The notes under the pieces: model-generated
Databases searched by the model: none
What the model saw: only the letters and a program-made list of their open reading frames with translations
Told to the model about the DNA's origin: nothing
Part shown: positions 1,874 to 15,406 of the stretch, in pieces
Layout: the number at the start of each line of letters is the position of its first letter
Position numbering within the stretch: position 1 is the first letter of the stretch
IMG/VR virus record: IMGVR_UViG_3300046171_000016
Coordinates: 1 to 29,192 of that record
Length of the DNA: 29,192 bases
From: a virus
Reading direction: 5' to 3' (one strand)
Translations under genes and position numbers: made by a program

Positions 1874-3091
1874 ATGCCATTAACAAACCCACAAAAGAAT
1901 GTAATACAAGATAAATCAAGATTTAGAGTTTTAATTACTGGGCGAAGATTTGGCAAAACATTTGTGGCTATCAATGAAATAGCTAAGTTTGCAAGTATTT
2001 CAAATAAAAAAATATGGTATGTTGCACCCAGTTACAGACAAGCTAAAGCTATTTGTTGGGGTGTATTAAAAGAAAAGATGATTTATCATAAATGGGTCAA
2101 GAGTATAAACCATAGTGATTTAACTATTACACTCAAAAATAATACCCAGATAACACTTAGGGGATCAGATAATGAAAGTAGCCTTAGAGGTGTTGGGTTA
2201 CATTTCCTAATTCTTGATGAATTTCAAGACATTAATAAAACTGCTTGGTATGAAGTTCTTAGACCTACATTATCAGACACTAAAGGTCATGCGTTATTTT
2301 GTGGTACACCTAGAGGTTTTGGGAACTGGTCATATGATCTATATAAAATGGGTGAAACTAATAAAGATTGGCAAAGTTTTCAATATACAACCCTAGAGGG
2401 TGAACAGGTTACACAAGACGAAATAGAACAGGCAAAACAAGATTTAGATTTAAGAACATTTCAACAGGAATATGAAGCAACATTTGTAAACTATTCTGGA
2501 ATGATTTATTACAATTTTAGTAGAGATAAAAACATAATTGAAAAATATACTAAGGATAGTCCAGTATTACATATTGGTTTAGATTTTAACGTAGACCCTA
2601 TGAGTGCTGTAGTTTGTATTATAGAAAATGATAGAATTATTGTAGTAGATGAAGTACAAATATATAGCAGTAATACAAATGAAATGTGTGATGAGATTAA
2701 AACCAGATATAAAAATAAACAGATAGTTGTTTATCCAGACCCTTCAGCTAGACAAAGAAAAACTTCTGCGGGTGGATTAACTGATTTATCTATATTGAAA
2801 AATAATGGTTTTGATGTAAGATGTAGAAGTACAGCACCTTTAGTAAGGGATAGGATAAACGCAGTAAATTCAAAGCTAAAAAACGTAAATGGTAAAAACA
2901 GCTTATTTATTGTGAAATTCTGTAAAAATGCGATCAAAAGCATAGAAAGACAGATTTATAAGGAAGGTACACATATTCCAGAAAAAGATAGCGGTTACGA
3001 TCACATGAATGATGCTCTAGGTTATTTAATAGAATATCTATACCCGCTAAAAAGGAATTTTGCACCAAGCCAACCTAAAAGGTGGAGTTGA
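1874..3091 (+). CDS. terL: Terminase large subunit (ATPase-nuclease)
   Basis: ATP-driven motor that packages DNA into the prohead and cuts it. The 405 residues are a usual length for short Terminase_6-type subunits. Walker A-like GRRFGKT lies at 23-29 and Walker B FLILDE at 111-116, followed by a coupling motif around GTPRG (about 143). The C-terminal RNase H-like nuclease is marked by HIGLDFNVDP near residue 233 and YDHMNDALGYLIEY near the end, which supply the acidic metal ligands. The stop overlaps the portal start (TGATG). All key motifs look intact. Confidence 0.95.
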   Translation: MPLTNPQKNVIQDKSRFRVLITGRRFGKTFVAINEIAKFASISNKKIWYVAPSYRQAKAICWGVLKEKMIYHKWVKSINHSDLTITLKNNTQITLRGSDNESSLRGVGLHFLILDEFQDINKTAWYEVLRPTLSDTKGHALFCGTPRGFGNWSYDLYKMGETNKDWQSFQYTTLEGEQVTQDEIEQAKQDLDLRTFQQEYEATFVNYSGMIYYNFSRDKNIIEKYTKDSPVLHIGLDFNVDPMSAVVCIIENDRIIVVDEVQIYSSNTNEMCDEIKTRYKNKQIVVYPDPSARQRKTSAGGLTDLSILKNNGFDVRCRSTAPLVRDRINAVNSKLKNVNGKNSLFIVKFCKNAIKSIERQIYKEGTHIPEKDSGYDHMNDALGYLIEYLYPLKRNFAPSQPKRWS

Positions 3092-3582
3092 TGAACAGGG
3101 AAACACTAACTAGCAAACATGAATTGTGGGATAAAAATATATCTAACTGGGAGTTTTATATCCGAAGTTATTTAGGGGGTAATGATTATAAAAATGGTTA
3201 TTATCTTCACAGATATGTTTTAGAATCACCAGAAGATTATGATGCTAGAATTAGACATACCCCAGTTGATAACCATTGTAAAAACGTAGTTCAAATATAT
3301 ACAAGTTTCTTATGGAGAGTACCACCAACCAGAAATTATGGTTCTTTAGACGGAGATCAACAACTTACTTCATTCTTAAATGATGCTGATTTAGATGGTA
3401 GGTCATTTAATACTATAATGCGTGAGGTTCAAATGAACGCTAGTATTTATGGTAATTGTTGGGTGATAGTTGATAAGCCACAATCAAACGCTAATACAAG
3501 AGCAGAAGAACTAGCACAAGGACATAAGACCTTATGTTTCAATATATACACCAGAAAATGTTGTAAACTGGAATTATGCTAG
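3091..3582 (+). CDS. Portal protein, N-terminal part (frame broken)
   Basis: The first part of the portal, the dodecameric DNA gate at the capsid vertex. It starts at ATG 3091, overlapping the terL stop, with GGTGGAG as ribosome site. Residues such as DARIRHTPVDNHCKNVVQIY and MNASIYGNCWVIVDKP fit a portal of the DUF4055-like type. The frame holds until about AEELAQG, after which this frame gives a Cys/Lys-rich tail unlike a portal and stops at 3582. In the +1 frame the expected sequence resumes at once (RPYVSIYTPENVVNWNYARS, from 3527). One extra base near 3520-3526 restores a continuous ~470-residue portal. It may be an assembly or sequencing error, or a real indel. Confidence 0.85.
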   Translation: MNRETLTSKHELWDKNISNWEFYIRSYLGGNDYKNGYYLHRYVLESPEDYDARIRHTPVDNHCKNVVQIYTSFLWRVPPTRNYGSLDGDQQLTSFLNDADLDGRSFNTIMREVQMNASIYGNCWVIVDKPQSNANTRAEELAQGHKTLCFNIYTRKCCKLELC

Positions 3583-3610: not shown

Positions 3611-4507
3611 ATGTTAATGGTTGTAGAAGATATAAACACCGAAAGAGCAATAATAAAAGTATTCACAGAAGAAACTATAAGCACATATGAAGTTGAAGAT
3701 TATCAAGAAGAATACAAAGAAGGTGATGCAAGACTAATTGAAGAAATACCTAACCCAATAGGCAAGATACCCGCAGTAAATGTTTATAATCTTAGAGGTG
3801 CAAAGCGACCAATAGGTATAAGTGATTTAGCAGACGTAGCTTATTTACAGCAATCTATCTATAATGATTATTCTGAAAAAGAACAGTTAATCAGATTAGC
3901 AAACCACCCAAGTTTAGTTAAAACCCCTAATGTTGAAGCTAGTGCGGGTGCGGGTGCAATAATAGAAATACCAGAAGATTTAGATAGTGCATTAAAGCCT
4001 TATATAATCCAACCTAGCGGTCAAAACCTAGATGGGATAATGAAATGTATTCAAAACAAAGTTGATGCTATTGATAGAATAACCCACATGGGTTCAGTTA
4101 GGGCAACAGGTACACAGATAGCTAGTGGAATTGCATTACAAACTGAATTTCAATTATTAAATGCTAGATTATCAGAAAAAGCAGATTATTTAGAAAATGC
4201 CGAAGAACAAATATGGGGATTATTTGCTAGATGGCAAGATAAACAGTTTGATGGTTCTATAAACTACCCAGATACATTTGATATTAGGGATTGGGCAAAC
4301 GATCTACAATATTTACAAATGGCTAAAGCTAGTGGCATAAAATCAGAAACATTTAACAAGGAAATAGATAAACAAATAGCAGAAGCAGTAATAGACGATA
4401 ATGAAACTATGAAAACTATTAATGATGAAATAGATGCTATCAGAACTGTTAGGGGTCAATTTCAAACAACAGAAGTGGAAGGTCAAACAGTTGGCGAAGA
4501 AACGTAA
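3611..4507 (+). CDS. Portal protein, C-terminal part (frame broken)
   Basis: Continuation of the portal gene in the +1 frame. ATG 3611 is merely the first methionine; the homologous sequence starts upstream at about 3524-3527 with no start codon or ribosome site, so this is a piece and not a separate gene. It holds GKIPAVNVYNLRGAK, GISDLADVAYLQQSIYNDYS and a long C-terminal helical part (ERTVRGQF-like acidic end), as in portal proteins. An in-frame TAG at 3512 limits the frame-shift point to 3515-3582. The 3' end overlaps the next small gene. Confidence 0.85.
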   Translation: MLMVVEDINTERAIIKVFTEETISTYEVEDYQEEYKEGDARLIEEIPNPIGKIPAVNVYNLRGAKRPIGISDLADVAYLQQSIYNDYSEKEQLIRLANHPSLVKTPNVEASAGAGAIIEIPEDLDSALKPYIIQPSGQNLDGIMKCIQNKVDAIDRITHMGSVRATGTQIASGIALQTEFQLLNARLSEKADYLENAEEQIWGLFARWQDKQFDGSINYPDTFDIRDWANDLQYLQMAKASGIKSETFNKEIDKQIAEAVIDDNETMKTINDEIDAIRTVRGQFQTTEVEGQTVGEET

Positions 4508-5081: not shown

Positions 5082-5099
5082 TAAAATCAAGGACTTATG

Positions 5100-5387
5100 A
5101 TGGCTACTTATAGAGGTAAAGACGTTAAATTAAACAAACCATTTAGATTATCTACAGCAGAATCTAAAAGAAAAAAGTTTGGTGTTTATGTCAAAAACAA
5201 ATCCACAGGTAATATTAAGAAAGTTACTTTTGGTGCTAGAGGAATGTCTATAAAGAAAAACATACCCGCAAGACAAAAAAGTTTTTTAGCTAGAATGGGC
5301 GGAGTTCTAAAAGAAGTTAAAGGACAAAAGACACTTTCACCCGCTTACTGGTCTATTAGGGCATGGAAAAAAGACTTTCCATTATAA
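5100..5387 (+). CDS. DUF6321-like small protein (95 aa)
   Basis: It starts MATYRGKDVKLNKPFRLS and contains KKFGVYVKNKSTGNIKKVTF, then IKKNIPARQKSFLARMGG and a terminal YWSIRAWKKDF. This order (K-x-V-x-L-N-K-P, VYVK, NPARxKSFxAR, YWSxxxW) matches the phage family I recall as DUF6321; function unknown. In many relatives the middle of the C-terminal part has a Cys; none is here. ATG 5100 is preferred to ATG 5097 because AAGGA ends 6 bases before it. It lies just before the MuF gene. Confidence 0.75.
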   Translation: MATYRGKDVKLNKPFRLSTAESKRKKFGVYVKNKSTGNIKKVTFGARGMSIKKNIPARQKSFLARMGGVLKEVKGQKTLSPAYWSIRAWKKDFPL

Positions 5388-5390
5388 AAT

Positions 5391-7112
5391 ATGTCGAGAA
5401 TATTAGAAAAATTAGCAGATCAGCATGAAGAACGTATAATCAATGTTTTATATACTTTAGAAAATGACATTATTAATGAGGTTACTAGAGCCACAAAAGG
5501 TCAATTAGTATCACAAAGATTAGCTATACAATTACAACCCAGACTAAGAACAATAATACAAAATACATTTTTAAATGAAGCTGATCTAATAATAAATGAG
5601 GAATACAATAAGGTTGCAAAAGAAGTATTAGATACTTTTGGTAAAATGCCTATTCCTAAAAAGTTTAAGAGCCTAACAGATATAGACCTAACTACAATCA
5701 ATGCCTTAAAAACACAATCATTTAGCGGTTTTGAAGATATAGCTGAAAGATTTTTAAAAGTTATTAATGATGAAGTTTACCAAAGCACAATAGCGGGTAG
5801 ACCTTTTGAAGATATGGTTAGCAATATTAGATCACATATTAATGGTGTTTATAAAACGTCAAATACTCGTGAGATAAATGAATTAGTTGATTTTATTAAC
5901 GAGAATAAGTTTGATACTGCAAAAAAAGCACAAGTAGAAGATGCAGTTAGAAAATTACATACCCAGTACGCATCAGATAGGGCGGGAAACAACCTAAGAC
6001 GTTATGCAAGTCAAATAGCACATGATTCAGTCATGCAGTTTCATGGACAATTTACAGTAGCTAAAGCTAAAGCATCTGGGTTAAATCATTTCACATATAC
6101 AGGTACATTAGTAAGGGATAGCCGACCATTTTGTCAGAATATGCTTAATAGGACACTCACAGAAGAACAAATAAGAGATATGTGGAATAATAGAGCATGG
6201 CAAGGAAAGAGTACAGGCGATCCATTTATTGTTAGGGGTGGTTATAGGTGCAGACATACTTGGATACCCACAGACCCCTCATGGGGTGAAGAAACAGTAG
6301 ATGAATTGCCAACAGAAGAAGAAGCATTTGATGAAACACTAAATGTAGTAAATTCTAGTTCTTTAACTAATAAAATAAAACTTGATGATATAAAGCCAGT
6401 TTCTATTGGTCTTTTGACTAATAAATTAAATAAACAATTTAAAGAAAATGCCAAAGATGAAAGATACCCAAGAGATGGAAATGGTAAAGAAGTTTTAAAA
6501 TATAACGAAAGTCTTGAACGTAGAAGAAACAATGAGCCTATTTTTGTTGCTGAATTTAAAGACAGTTCTGGACAAAAAAGAGATTTTAAATGGTCTGAAA
6601 AAGATTATGGAGTTGTAGAAGCATTAATGCAAGAACTTGATGAATTAGCTATAAAATATGATGTTCCAAAATTAAGGGGTATTAATGCTGAAAAAGGTCA
6701 CATAGCATCTATGGGTGATGGTGTTTTAAATTTAAATGTAAGATTTAACATTTTAGAAAGAACTGGAACAGAGGTTACAAAATGGAAAAAGGGAGATAGT
6801 CTTTTTGATAGACCATTTACAGCAGATTCATTTTTTGAAGATAAATTAGATAAAATAAGAACTACTTTTTATCATGAGTTCGGGCATCATATTCATCAAC
6901 AAAAATTTGTGAAAAATGCGGGTGATTATTATTTGCCACCAGTTGAAACAGAACTAAAGAAATTAAGAAGATTTAGAGGAGGTAGTGCCACTAGATATGC
7001 TGAACAAAATAAATATGAATGGTTTGCGGAAAATTTTAGTTTATACGAAACAGGCAAAACAGAGTTAGTAGACCCTAATTTTTTAAAATTCTTAGAGGAA
7101 AAAGTGTTATGA
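5391..7112 (+). CDS. MuF-like minor head protein fused to an HExxH zinc-peptidase-like domain (573 aa)
   Basis: Residues ~1-300 form a Phage_Mu_F/SPP1 gp7-type minor head protein: helical start, a DRAGNNLRRYASQIAHDSVM segment near 195 and the GTLVRDSRPFCQNMLNR to GGYRCRHTWIP core ending near 293. About 80 residues of linker follow. The C-terminal ~200 residues carry HEFGHHIH (H495, E496, H499) and 44 residues later EWFAENFSLY (E543 or E547 as third ligand), the layout of a gluzincin-type metallopeptidase, as in the toxin-like C-terminal domains of polymorphic MuF proteins. MuF proteins are packed inside or at the portal, so the peptidase could enter the host with DNA, or could process head proteins, as no other prohead protease is visible. 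The next small gene overlaps its end by 4 bases. Confidence 0.88.
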   Translation: MSRILEKLADQHEERIINVLYTLENDIINEVTRATKGQLVSQRLAIQLQPRLRTIIQNTFLNEADLIINEEYNKVAKEVLDTFGKMPIPKKFKSLTDIDLTTINALKTQSFSGFEDIAERFLKVINDEVYQSTIAGRPFEDMVSNIRSHINGVYKTSNTREINELVDFINENKFDTAKKAQVEDAVRKLHTQYASDRAGNNLRRYASQIAHDSVMQFHGQFTVAKAKASGLNHFTYTGTLVRDSRPFCQNMLNRTLTEEQIRDMWNNRAWQGKSTGDPFIVRGGYRCRHTWIPTDPSWGEETVDELPTEEEAFDETLNVVNSSSLTNKIKLDDIKPVSIGLLTNKLNKQFKENAKDERYPRDGNGKEVLKYNESLERRRNNEPIFVAEFKDSSGQKRDFKWSEKDYGVVEALMQELDELAIKYDVPKLRGINAEKGHIASMGDGVLNLNVRFNILERTGTEVTKWKKGDSLFDRPFTADSFFEDKLDKIRTTFYHEFGHHIHQQKFVKNAGDYYLPPVETELKKLRRFRGGSATRYAEQNKYEWFAENFSLYETGKTELVDPNFLKFLEEKVL

Positions 7113-7318
7113 GCAAGTTATTTGATGAAGCAAGTGAAATATTAGGATTAGAAAGAGATTTAACTTTACAAGATTATAAGAGATTTAAAGAAATTGAAAA
7201 AAATATAACAGAAAATGAAGAACGTAATTTTGCTTGGTTGCTTGAGGGGTTATCTTTAAGATTGCCAGAAATAGCACAAAAAGAGGGTAATTATGATTGG
7301 GTTGAGCTAGATAATTAA
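7109..7318 (+). CDS. Small acidic protein coupled to the MuF-peptidase gene (69 aa)
   Basis: Not recognised. It starts within the last codons of the MuF gene (ATGA overlap), so it is probably translationally coupled. The product is acidic and helical (LFDEASEILGLERDLTLQDY ... GNYDWVELDN), with no Cys or membrane segment. Position and size are those expected for a partner, chaperone or immunity protein of the peptidase domain, but the sequence alone does not show that. Confidence 0.65.
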   Translation: MSKLFDEASEILGLERDLTLQDYKRFKEIEKNITENEERNFAWLLEGLSLRLPEIAQKEGNYDWVELDN

Positions 7319-7377
7319 GACTTCTAGCATTTTTTAAATAAATTTGTTATAAAGATACTACCAATATGGAGGTTTAA

Positions 7378-8079
7378 ATGGAAGAAAATCAAGTAGAACA
7401 AACTACTGAAACAAAAGAAGAAGTAATACAGGTACAAGAAACACCAACACAGACATTCACACAAGACGAGGTTAATAACATAGTTGAAAGACGATTAGCC
7501 AAAGAAAGAGGTTCTATGTATAAGAAACTAGGTGTTGATGATTTAGATATAGCTGTAACTGCTGTAAAGACACAAAAAGAAGCAGAAGAAAAGCAACGTA
7601 TTCAAAAGGGTGAGTTTGAGGAAATACTTAAAACAAGAACCCAAGAGCATCAAAAAGAAAAAACACAATTAGAAAATCAATTAAAAGATATTAAGATAAA
7701 CAAGTCTTTATTATCGTCAGCATCAAAGAACAAAGCTATAAACCCAGACCAAGTTGTTGAACTTTTAAAGGGTAATATAAAGCTAAATGAAACAGGTAAT
7801 GTAGAAATACTTGATAATAATGGAATTGCAAGATACAATAAATCGGGTGAACTTTTAACTACAGATGAATTAGTACAGGAGTTCTTAACACAAAACCCTC
7901 ACTTTGTTAGTGCTACCCCTAGTGGTTCTGGCTCGGTGTCAAATGTGGATAGGCAAGAACTCAATAAGCCTTTTAATTTGAGTGATCTTAATTTTAATAA
8001 CCCAGAGGACAGGAAAAAATATGCTGAATATAAAAAGCAAAGAGATTCCAAACCTAGAGTTATCAATTCAAACCCATAA
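7378..8079 (+). CDS. Scaffold protein (GP20-like, 233 aa)
   Basis: Internal scaffold that guides capsid assembly. The Glu/Gln/Thr-rich start is followed by FTQDEVNNIVERRLAKERG (residues ~30-48) and a long coiled coil (EAEEKQRIQKGEFEEILKTR and onward to ~115), then a loose C-terminal part ending with NPEDRKKYAEYKKQRDSK. This is the classic architecture of phage scaffolds directly upstream of the capsid gene. A strong ribosome site (GGAGG, 7366-7370) precedes it. No protease is fused to it. Confidence 0.88.
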   Translation: MEENQVEQTTETKEEVIQVQETPTQTFTQDEVNNIVERRLAKERGSMYKKLGVDDLDIAVTAVKTQKEAEEKQRIQKGEFEEILKTRTQEHQKEKTQLENQLKDIKINKSLLSSASKNKAINPDQVVELLKGNIKLNETGNVEILDNNGIARYNKSGELLTTDELVQEFLTQNPHFVSATPSGSGSVSNVDRQELNKPFNLSDLNFNNPEDRKKYAEYKKQRDSKPRVINSNP

Positions 8080-8106: not shown

Positions 8107-8946
8107 ATGGCTAATGAAACAACCAGTTCAACCATTTCGGAACTATACACCGAGATAGTTGCAGAAGCATTATTTGTTGCGAGTGAGCAATCTATAATGA
8201 GAAATTTGGTTAGAAACTACACGATTGCGGGTGGTGGAAAATCAGTAGAAGTTCCAATATATGCTACAGTTTCAGCAAGTGCAGTTAGTGAAGCATCAGA
8301 CCTATCCAACACAGCAGTAAACCCAAGTTCTGTTACTATTACAGCATCAGAAGTTGGTATTATGACAACACTAACAGACCTAGCTAGAAACTCAGCGGGT
8401 AGAAATGTTGCGGGTGATATTGGTAGATTATTTGGCGAAGCTATTGCTAGAAAAGTTGATGCAGATTTATCAGCACTATTCACAGGCTTTTCAACAGAAA
8501 GAGCGGGTGGAGCGGGTAACGAATTAACTGTTGCCGATATATTTGAAGCAGTTGCCGATCTTAGAACAGCAAATGCTCCCGCACCCTACTATGGTGTATT
8601 TCACCCAAAGCAAATATTTAATGTTAAAAAGTCTTTAACAAACACATTTGTGGGTAGAGATACAGAACTTTCAAATGAAGCTATGAGAAGTGGTTTTGTT
8701 GGAAACATAGCGGGAGTTCAGATATTTGAATCTTCTAATATTTCTGTTGATGGTTCAGATGACTCTATTGGTGGTGTATTCTCACAAGATGCTCTTGCTC
8801 TAGCTATGATGCAAGATTTAAAACTTGAAACACAAAGAGATGCGTCATTGAGAGCAGATGAAATAGTTGCAACAGCGGTTTATGGAGTAAGTGAAATCCA
8901 TGACACATATGGTGTTAAGTTAACAGCGGACACACTAGCTAACTAA
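8107..8946 (+). CDS. Major capsid protein (279 aa)
   Basis: HK97-fold shell protein by position and sequence style: it follows the scaffold, has a strong AGGAGA ribosome site, and is Ala/Ser/Val-rich with low Lys. Recognisable parts are the N-terminal helix (ISELYTEIVAEALFVASEQS), the E-loop-like stretch with GGGKSVEVPIYATVSAS, the spine-like helix (GRLFGEAIARKVDADLSALF) and the GVSEIHDTYGVKLTADTLAN end. At 279 residues it lacks an N-terminal delta domain, which fits use of a separate scaffold. A hairpin terminator follows within 10 bases of the stop. Confidence 0.88.
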   Translation: MANETTSSTISELYTEIVAEALFVASEQSIMRNLVRNYTIAGGGKSVEVPIYATVSASAVSEASDLSNTAVNPSSVTITASEVGIMTTLTDLARNSAGRNVAGDIGRLFGEAIARKVDADLSALFTGFSTERAGGAGNELTVADIFEAVADLRTANAPAPYYGVFHPKQIFNVKKSLTNTFVGRDTELSNEAMRSGFVGNIAGVQIFESSNISVDGSDDSIGGVFSQDALALAMMQDLKLETQRDASLRADEIVATAVYGVSEIHDTYGVKLTADTLAN

Positions 8947-14402: not shown

Positions 14403-14969
14403 ATGGCTAGGGGTTTAACAAGTGCAGTAAAAACAGAACTAGCCACAGGAATAATAGAACCAGTTATTTTAGTAGAAATTGGTTTTTCAACCACAATATA
14501 TTTAACTAATGCAAGTTTTGATTTAACATCTAGTGTTTCTGGAACATCAAGAACATACTTATCTAATGGGCATTTAAGGGGTATTACAGGGGTGCAAGAA
14601 ACAAACGCACCAACTAAGAATAGTTTGTCTGTTAGCTTATCTGGGGTAGATCAAACGTACATAGCACTAGCTTTAACCGAGAATATAATAAATGATGATG
14701 TTTTTATTTATCAAGGTTATTTAAATTCTAGTTTGGCATTAATTTCAGACCCATTTTTATTGTTTTATGGGAATGTTGACGAGTTCAAAATATCCGATAA
14801 TACATCAACAGCAACATTAGTTTTACTTGTTAGTTCACATTGGGGAAATTTTAGCAAAACAAGTGGAAGGACAACTACACTTAATTCACAACAAAGGTTT
14901 TTTAGTGATGATGTTGGAATGGTATTTAGTGCCTTGACTGTTAGAGATATTAAGTGGGGTAGGGAATGA
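14403..14969 (+). CDS. Minor tail / tail-tip protein (DUF2163-like position, 188 aa)
   Basis: A beta-rich protein with VKTELATGIIEPVILVEIGF, TIYLTNASFDLTSSVSG, SGVDQTYIALALTENIINDD and a final WGNFSKTSGRTTTLNSQQRF. The Y-L-T-N, L-S-G-V-D and I-N-D-x-V blocks resemble hub-adapter proteins that occupy the DUF2163 place in GTA- and HK97-like tail tips. It follows the putative Dit gene without a gap and overlaps the GNAT-like gene by 4 bases. Confidence 0.65.
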   Translation: MARGLTSAVKTELATGIIEPVILVEIGFSTTIYLTNASFDLTSSVSGTSRTYLSNGHLRGITGVQETNAPTKNSLSVSLSGVDQTYIALALTENIINDDVFIYQGYLNSSLALISDPFLLFYGNVDEFKISDNTSTATLVLLVSSHWGNFSKTSGRTTTLNSQQRFFSDDVGMVFSALTVRDIKWGRE

Positions 14970-15406
14970 CAAGCACACATTTATATTATGCAGAAAAAAC
15001 AGATATTGAAATTATTTATAATTTATTATTAGAATATAAAAACAAAGATTGTGAAGCTGATTATCCAGATGTTGATAGAAAAAAAGGTATGTATTTTATA
15101 AATACTATTCTGGATAAGGGCAAAGTAGTTTTGATGAAAGATTTAGATAATGATGAATTAATTGGTTGTTGTATGTTTAATAAATCTGAATATTTTTTTA
15201 GTAAAGATCAAATAATGCAAATACAAATTATTTATATTAAAAAAGATTTTAGAAATTTTAAATTATTTAAATTATTTATTGATAGTGTAAAAAAAGTTTC
15301 AGAAGATTTACCAATAGTTTTATCAATTACATCTGGTTTACATATAGACCCAGTTTTTGAAAAATTAGGATTTAAAAATATGGGTTCTAATTGGAGGTTT
15401 GCATAA
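14966..15406 (+). CDS. GNAT-like acetyltransferase-fold protein in the tail-tip cluster (146 aa)
   Basis: The pattern fits a GNAT fold: N-terminal YAEKTDIEIIYNLLLEYKN, a strand pair KVVLMKDLDNDELIGCCMF, then MQIQIIYIKKDFRNFKLFKL and a terminal HIDPVFEKLGFKNMGSNW, the usual end of such proteins. The acetyl-CoA loop Q/R-x-x-G-x-G/A is not intact (R-N-F-K-L-F), so it may be inactive or use another ligand. It takes the place usually held by an NlpC/P60 peptidase between the tip adapter and the hub, with 4-base (upstream) overlap and no gap downstream. Its base composition is visibly more AT-rich than its neighbours. A structural or modifying role cannot be told apart here. Confidence 0.7.
   Translation: MTSTHLYYAEKTDIEIIYNLLLEYKNKDCEADYPDVDRKKGMYFINTILDKGKVVLMKDLDNDELIGCCMFNKSEYFFSKDQIMQIQIIYIKKDFRNFKLFKLFIDSVKKVSEDLPIVLSITSGLHIDPVFEKLGFKNMGSNWRFA

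Follow-up and report, generated by a model that had tools for sequence, protein, structure and literature searches.

Minor head proteins of the MuF type have been described as carriers of polymorphic toxins, in which a variable enzyme occupies the C-terminus. In a 2017 study of 191 such toxins, a metallopeptidase domain was found in 20%, and a small downstream ORF lay behind 89.4% of the toxin genes, where it was commoner than behind short MuF genes (p<0.0001) (PMC5576092). According to the available sections of that study, the known toxin domains occur only in temperate phages and prophages, with a test on the phage set giving p=0.055, and MuF toxins are explained by lysogeny or by competition between bacteria (PMC5576092). 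Lethal-factor-type and other metallopeptidase toxin domains are listed in PMC3482391, and zincins within injected phage proteins are discussed in PMC5512222. A MuF protein with a metallopeptidase domain and a small ORF behind it is already a known kind of locus. In the open-licence PMC literature we found no report of a type-matched cassette swap among closely related phages, nor of a MuF-zincin cassette in phages without integrases, and the locus described here presents both.

The DNA analyzed here (the window, a stretch of 29,192 nucleotides) is viral and comprises positions 1 to 29,192 of IMG/VR record IMGVR_UViG_3300046171_000016. Compared with the phage collection, its terminase is most similar to those of four Pelagibacter phages (56–58% identity), followed by that of a phage of unspecified Proteobacteria (55%), and the GC content of the window is 32%; from the terminase matches to these marine phages and the GC content, we infer that the host is SAR11-like. 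An intact open reading frame of 573 aa (5391–7112, + strand) sits between the portal and the scaffold/capsid genes, the interval in which MuF genes are usually located. The sequence-only reading had described its product as a MuF head protein with a C-terminal zinc peptidase, resembling the MuF toxins, and alignment and modeling bear out such an architecture: a core (residues 1–298; 5391–6284, +) that stays constant while the C-terminus is exchanged, an acidic linker (residues 299–325; 6285–6365, +) that differs between relatives, and a zincin domain, hereafter zincin A (residues 326–573; 6366–7109, +), with a small gene downstream.

Several neighboring features of the window and its relatives are recorded here in their own right. 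The portal gene of the window is split into two ORFs (3082–3582 and 3611–4507), and 94 related ORFs hold both halves in one frame (474–477 aa in the six shown); we read the split as a frameshift in the window, due either to faulty assembly or to a genuine lesion. The interval between the portal and MuF genes contains a 96-aa ORF (5097–5387; phrog_7595), and in phages HTVC202P (L002:3076-3288 (-)) and HTVC111P (L003:2864-3322 (-)) it holds a reverse-strand ORF, so that another variable site may exist next to the MuF gene. In the tail module, before the central fibre gene, an acetyltransferase-like ORF (14966–15406; phrog_1249, E 2e-8) gave no Pfam match, and in HTVC026P the product gp47 (L001:21400-21813), encoded before a putative tail gene, matches the RTX-toxin acyltransferase HlyC (PF02794, E 7e-13).

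The assignment of the core to the MuF family required profile comparisons, as the window core has no match to Pfam PF04233 and TIGR01641 reaches only E 0.023, under its cut-off. The 573-aa protein matches PHROG_595 at E 5.6e-5, which the core alone also matches, as do 9 of the 15 members of the core alignment. Compared with an alignment of 11 MuF cores, the core-family profile gave E 3.5e-5 at a probability of 72% over 126 columns, and the six of those 11 cores that were tested singly (L089, L103, L005, L138, L219 and L221) all match PF04233. By the PHROG_595 match and this profile match, the core is probably a divergent MuF, so that the ‘Mu F core’ of the sequence-only reading would hold by kinship to PF04233-containing cores and not by a PF04233 match of its own. 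The same zincins also ride on other cores, with PF04233 matches at E 4e-13 to 4e-15. When 98 N-terminal parts were compared, they fell into three core families (75, 17 and 6 members), two of which match PF04233, with zincins A and B each occurring on two of the three. The Pelagibacter phages Aegir and Kolga carry zincin A on cores that do not match the window core profile, and the Aegir core matches PF04233.

Within zincin A, the motifs HEFGHHIH and EWFAENFSLY lie at residues 495–502 and 543–552, as had been claimed. In an alignment of 38 sequences (the window, 35 IMG/VR loci, HTVC026P and Aegir, with identity to the window down to 35%), both histidines of HExxH (residues 495–499; 6873–6887, +) and its first glutamate, as well as Y536, E543 and E547 in the stretch from Y536 to EWFAENF (543–549; 6996–7037, +), are invariant in 38/38; loss of HExxH in close homologues had been named as a sign against a peptidase, and the motif is kept in every aligned sequence. 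By analogy with lethal factor, we take H495 and H499 to be the zinc ligands and E496 to be catalytic, and E543 is presumably the third zinc ligand. The Pfam family ATLF (PF07737) matches all 38 members at E<=1, at best 1.8e-5, and Peptidase_Mx1 matches 15 of them, with the window domain itself staying under the curated cut-offs (14.8 vs 27.4 bits for ATLF; 19.7 vs 25.6 for Peptidase_Mx1). Searched against the PDB, the zincin A alignment profile found lethal factor at E 4e-5, and in that alignment the tyrosine and glutamate columns of the Y536–EWFAENF stretch coincide with those of the lethal-factor chain.

The structure prediction that the sequence-only reading had proposed, run here by AlphaFold2 on residues 326–573 with 36 sequences, gave a zincin fold with a pLDDT of 90.2 and a pTM of 0.91. 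Lethal-factor chains ranked first when the model was compared by VIA-align (Z 10.2, 180 residues, rmsd 4.1 Å, 14% identity), and Zmp1/PPEP-1 came next at Z 7.3 and below, about 3 Z lower; the best Foldseek match in the PDB was weak, at E 0.02, and a family missing from such fold-library matches was not read as absent. Together with the invariant HExxH and downstream glutamate, the predicted fold agrees with the gluzincin-type peptidase that had been suggested. On the model, we classify zincin A as a lethal-factor/PPEP-like zincin and not as a member of M34; since the window domain falls under the PF07737 cut-off, we speak of a lethal-factor-like fold rather than of M34/ATLF membership. Among the weak structural matches of the model in BFVD are phage proteins that bear the names ‘Lethal factor’ and ‘Minor capsid protein’ and are possibly further MuF-zincin fusions. 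In bacterial genomes, none of 595 stretches selected by pattern was confirmed as zincin A.

The same slot behind the core can hold a second domain, zincin B, with the motifs HEYGHHID and EIFANLF. A single family for zincins A and B was considered and rejected, as a profile comparison aligned just 18 columns around HExxH at a probability of 47%. The predicted folds of the two are nevertheless similar: the zincin B model (pLDDT 95.7) has lethal factor (Z 10.6) and PPEP-2 (Z 9.9) as its joint closest folds, with no Foldseek match at E below 0.1. Zincin B found no match in annotated phages, and 8 loci on bacterial contigs match it. In a Pfam scan of these bacterial loci that left out L220, L222, L224 and L225, PF04233 was found in the loci from Desulfosporosinus, Anaeromonas and Azoarcus contigs and Phage_min_cap2 in that from a Ruminococcus MAG; L222 and L225 do not look MuF-like. 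On the Desulfosporosinus MAG contig (L219:2603-4472), the MuF protein with a zincin-B-like domain is followed by a 78-aa ORF that matches the profile of the partner proteins found behind zincin B (E 1.9e-6, 860 ORFs searched). Against this profile, the values for the ORFs that follow L223 and L220 are no more than suggestive (E 1.2 and 6.3), and the ORFs behind L221 and L224 were not among its matches at E<=10 in the same 860 ORFs. By sequence similarity, the Desulfosporosinus locus suggests a B cassette of old origin that has reached several phyla.

To follow the slot among close relatives, 80 IMG/VR loci were kept as the best of 260 confirmed stretches from pattern-based searches, all of them sharing the core. 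Apart from cuts at contig ends, these loci are of three kinds, in which the core is followed by zincin A, followed by zincin B, or stops right after residue 298; since the searches were based on patterns and only the 80 best loci were kept, the share of each kind should not be read as its frequency in the population. Cores 81–98% identical to that of the window bear zincin A, zincin B or neither. The clearest comparison is with locus L044, whose core is 98% identical: the two DNAs are 93.5% identical up to 6323 and homologous again from 7340, and the peptidase and partner genes in between give no BLAST match, L044 having zincin B and its partner B instead. This comparison bounds the exchangeable cassette of the window, zincin with partner, at 6324–7339 (+). 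A second locus (L043) breaks off from the window at 6323 and resumes at 7320, and two loci without the block (L046, whose core is 94% identical, and L057) have their breakpoints at 6277 and 7381, so that homology to these relatives always stops at either 6277 or 6323. Divergence can also occur within one type, as in L021, where a core 98% identical to that of the window bears a zincin A just 41% identical. From these comparisons of sequence, zincin and partner are exchanged between phages as a unit, which at this one site takes the place of another pair or of nothing.

The partner gene encodes a 69-aa protein (7109–7318, +) whose start overlaps the stop of the peptidase gene, and which we propose as a cognate inhibitor or immunity protein. 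The sequence-only reading had overlooked this gene, as well as the exchange of the cassette and the second zincin family in its slot. The window partner has no PHROGs match at E<=0.01, and one representative of each partner family has no Pfam or NCBIfam match at E<=1. To count pairings, we searched 219 sequences (L001–L218 and the window) and obtained 218 proteins with a zincin or core match, from which 4 that were cut at the 3′ end and 69 whose last 150 residues repeated those of another were dropped; of the remaining 145, 28 are cut at the 5′ end, and a near-identical locus stands for the window. Behind each stop codon, ORFs of 30–110 aa were considered if their start lay within −40 to +120 of it. 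All 67 zincin A genes are followed by an ORF of 58–72 aa from one BLAST-connected family found with A only, and all 59 zincin B genes by an ORF of 55–76 aa from another family found with B only, so that partner position and type-matching hold for 126/126 zincin genes vs 0/19 core-only loci, which have no partner ORF. The window itself conforms to the pairing of zincin A with partner A. A common family for partners A and B was rejected, the profile comparison giving a probability of 0.6%. A few B and A loci have extra small ORFs outside both partner families.

Searching in the reverse direction from single partners, all 13 partner-A loci and all 3 partner-B loci lay behind a matching zincin end, though this search is a weak test for orphan partners because it returned only one new contig (L234), which holds just the last 68 residues of a zincin; wide partner alignments were too variable for searching. 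Among 46 aligned partner A proteins, residue E46 is invariant (46/46). We also noted that some A zincins (L039, L041, L045 and L048–L055), in MuF proteins of 665–682 aa, contain a long insert and form a sub-family, which has a distinct short partner of 59–64 aa starting at −16 in 6/6 distinct cases; judged by sequence, the long-insert zincins and their own short partners may be cognate sub-types within type A.

The pairing counts overstate the number of evolutionary events, as linked genes of related phages are not independent. Correlations between distance matrices were also calculated (Mantel, 5000 permutations). For zincin A (n=43), zincin and partner distances correlate at r 0.876, and still at 0.858 once core distance is removed, with zincin~core at 0.352, zincin~scaffold at 0.416 and core~scaffold at 0.930. 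Among the 28 A members with close cores, defined by a distance of up to 0.22 from a single reference core (that of the first row and not that of the window), zincin~partner is 0.905, zincin~core 0.083 (p 0.08) and zincin~scaffold 0.317. Type B behaves similarly, with zincin~partner at 0.933 vs zincin~core at 0.159 (n=13); in its 10 members with close cores the values are 0.967 vs 0.546, and we count it against the reading as an effector cassette that these close-core B zincins also follow the core. Pooled dN/dS over close pairs (20 for A and 8 for B, non-independent) is 0.21 (A) and 0.20 (B) for the zincins, 0.16 and 0.22 for the partners and 0.09 and 0.07 for the cores, the zincin values being biased downwards since the pairs were picked for low zincin divergence; for the same reason, the zincin pS, which is lower than the core pS, is not independent evidence of exchange. 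On these values, zincin and partner both look constrained in close pairs. Medians of 0.56–0.68 for the zincins and 0.65 for the partners were set aside, as they include saturated pairs.

The core-only relatives bear on what the head itself needs. Downstream of the cassette, the window encodes a scaffolding protein (7378–8079, +) and a major capsid protein (8107–8946, +), and where a close relative has the core only, its scaffold gene begins at +10 or +11 from the MuF stop. Five cassette-less phages (L057, L058, L063, L064 and L066), whose MuF protein of 300–308 aa ends just past the core, have cores 88–89%, scaffolds 87–89% and capsid proteins 95–96% identical to those of the window. When 12 core-only records (7–32 kb, some of them short fragments) were searched for either zincin at another place, 0/12 had one, and six of these records were searched again alongside working positive controls. 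An apparent remnant of the peptidase in the core-only loci L046, L059 and L060 was rejected, as the tblastn match (with residues 1–370) crosses the stop into the scaffold gene. Since capsid proteins 95–96% identical occur in peptidase-less phages, these comparisons indicate that the zincin is dispensable for the head and not an obligatory head-maturation protease, and the suggestion that it is used to mature the head is not supported.

The sequence-only reading had also remarked that the phage has no visible lysogeny genes, and this stands for integrases only. Among 33 records (the window and 32 related ones, six from isolates; the IMG/VR records may be fragments), tyrosine integrase (PF00589), resolvase (PF00239) and rve-type transposase (PF00665) were each found in 0/33, and an HTH_3 regulator was found in nine, seven of them over the cut-off. 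Its carriers include four isolates of the HTVC026P group (HTVC026P, HTVC202P, HTVC111P and HTVC112P), and it is absent from the window and from 17 searched contigs with cores matching that of the window. The absence of a detectable integrase in these phages does not amount to a strictly lytic life and is compatible with a lasting infection. In the available part of PMC8163748, many SAR11 phage isolates allow steady-state cultures irrespective of lysogeny genes, in passages that do not single out Kolga, and Aegir is described there as a partial genome from the Kolga population. If steady-state infection applies here, an antidote in infected cells would make sense.

Taken together, we consider it probable that the two genes (5391–7112 and 7109–7318) form a head-borne effector cassette of a MuF zincin and its cognate inhibitor, given the domain and its predicted fold, the invariant active site, the type-matched pairing, the swap and the dispensability for the head. 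From MuF biology, the core would dock at the portal or head; the zincin, packed in the virion, would enter the cell together with the DNA, cleave a cytoplasmic protein there and be toxic, and the partner would bind and silence the cognate zincin inside the producing cell, as type-matched linkage and co-divergence suggest. Against this we count that the window core misses PF04233, that its zincin misses the curated Pfam cut-offs, and that immunity to one's own toxin is harder to rationalize in a phage that simply lyses its host.

One version of this reading, not a separate rival, names the situation in which the effector would act, and we advance it tentatively, as less likely than not. The heads of phages without integration genes would be packed with peptidases whose types exclude one another, and a cell already infected, perhaps persistently, would make the cognate partner, which would disarm an incoming phage of the same type and not of other types, as in a polymorphic toxin system of virus against virus. 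If true, the cassette would be a weapon of kin discrimination or superinfection between phages competing for one host population.

We think it unlikely, but in better standing than the other rivals, that the partner acts as a chaperone or loading factor, helping the zincin to fold or bringing it to its place in the head, with the zincin still an injected effector in host takeover or anti-defence. The pairing, the gene overlap and the co-divergence would look alike under this explanation, and PMC5512222, in its accessible portion, allows zincins of polyvalent proteins as effectors on host proteins. However, two unrelated partner families serving zincins of similar fold fit cognate inhibition somewhat better, and the same layout is interpreted as immunity in the available text of PMC5576092. 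Improbable in our judgment is an autoprocessing peptidase that, at packaging or on entry, cleaves the MuF protein to which it belongs or some other protein of the virion, with the partner preventing premature cutting: autoprocessing is proposed for the zincins of phage P1 DdrB and others in the part of PMC5512222 at hand, and the linker at residues 299–325 is acidic and varies between relatives, yet close relatives manage without the domain, and two unrelated zincins in one slot do not suggest one fixed virion substrate. A prohead protease of this phage is very hard to credit, for although PHROG_595 is labelled ‘head maturation protease’ and PHROGs scans covering 28 proteins of the window (not every ORF) named no other prohead protease, the PHROG_595 match also holds for the core alone, and the five cassette-less phages, with capsid proteins 95–96% and scaffolds 87–89% identical, like the 12 core-only records, do without either zincin.

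Turning back to the probable cassette of effector and cognate inhibitor, its occurrence without a detectable integrase asks for another reason for an antidote, such as protection of the virion factory, persistence or competition between phages, and its two small uncharacterised partner families are candidate peptidase inhibitors. The idea is testable because isolated phages (HTVC026P, Kolga) carry the cassette. The Pelagibacter phage isolates HTVC026P, Aegir EXVC013S and Kolga EXVC016S have zincin A with a partner of the same family, at an identity to the window of 32% over the full length in HTVC026P and of 40% over the domain in Aegir and Kolga; in their records the MuF protein is annotated as ‘hypothetical’ or ‘putative head morphogenesis protein’ and the partner as ‘hypothetical’.

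As to its enzyme, zincin A resembles anthrax lethal factor (ATLF) and PPEP/Zmp1 in its aligned HExxH, tyrosine and glutamate columns, and these are the nearest predicted folds of both zincins, but identity over the lethal-factor fold alignments is only about 14–17%, under the Pfam cut-offs, and unlike these proteins zincin A is borne by the head protein of a phage and has a partner gene. With the zincins of polyvalent proteins it has in common that the phage protein which carries it is proposed to reach the inside of the host, whereas those proteins are multi-domain and the accessible text of PMC5512222 mentions no cognate small gene; here a lone zincin is joined to a MuF core and accompanied by a partner. 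Closest are the MuF polymorphic toxins, which have a MuF-type N-terminus in the packaging module, to which the core here probably corresponds, and likewise an exchangeable C-terminal enzyme common to different N-terminal families (here three core families) and a small ORF downstream. Unlike those temperate systems, the records here have no integrase or resolvase, with an HTH_3 regulator in a minority, and phages that are closely related differ in having one or the other of two zincin/partner cassettes or an empty slot.
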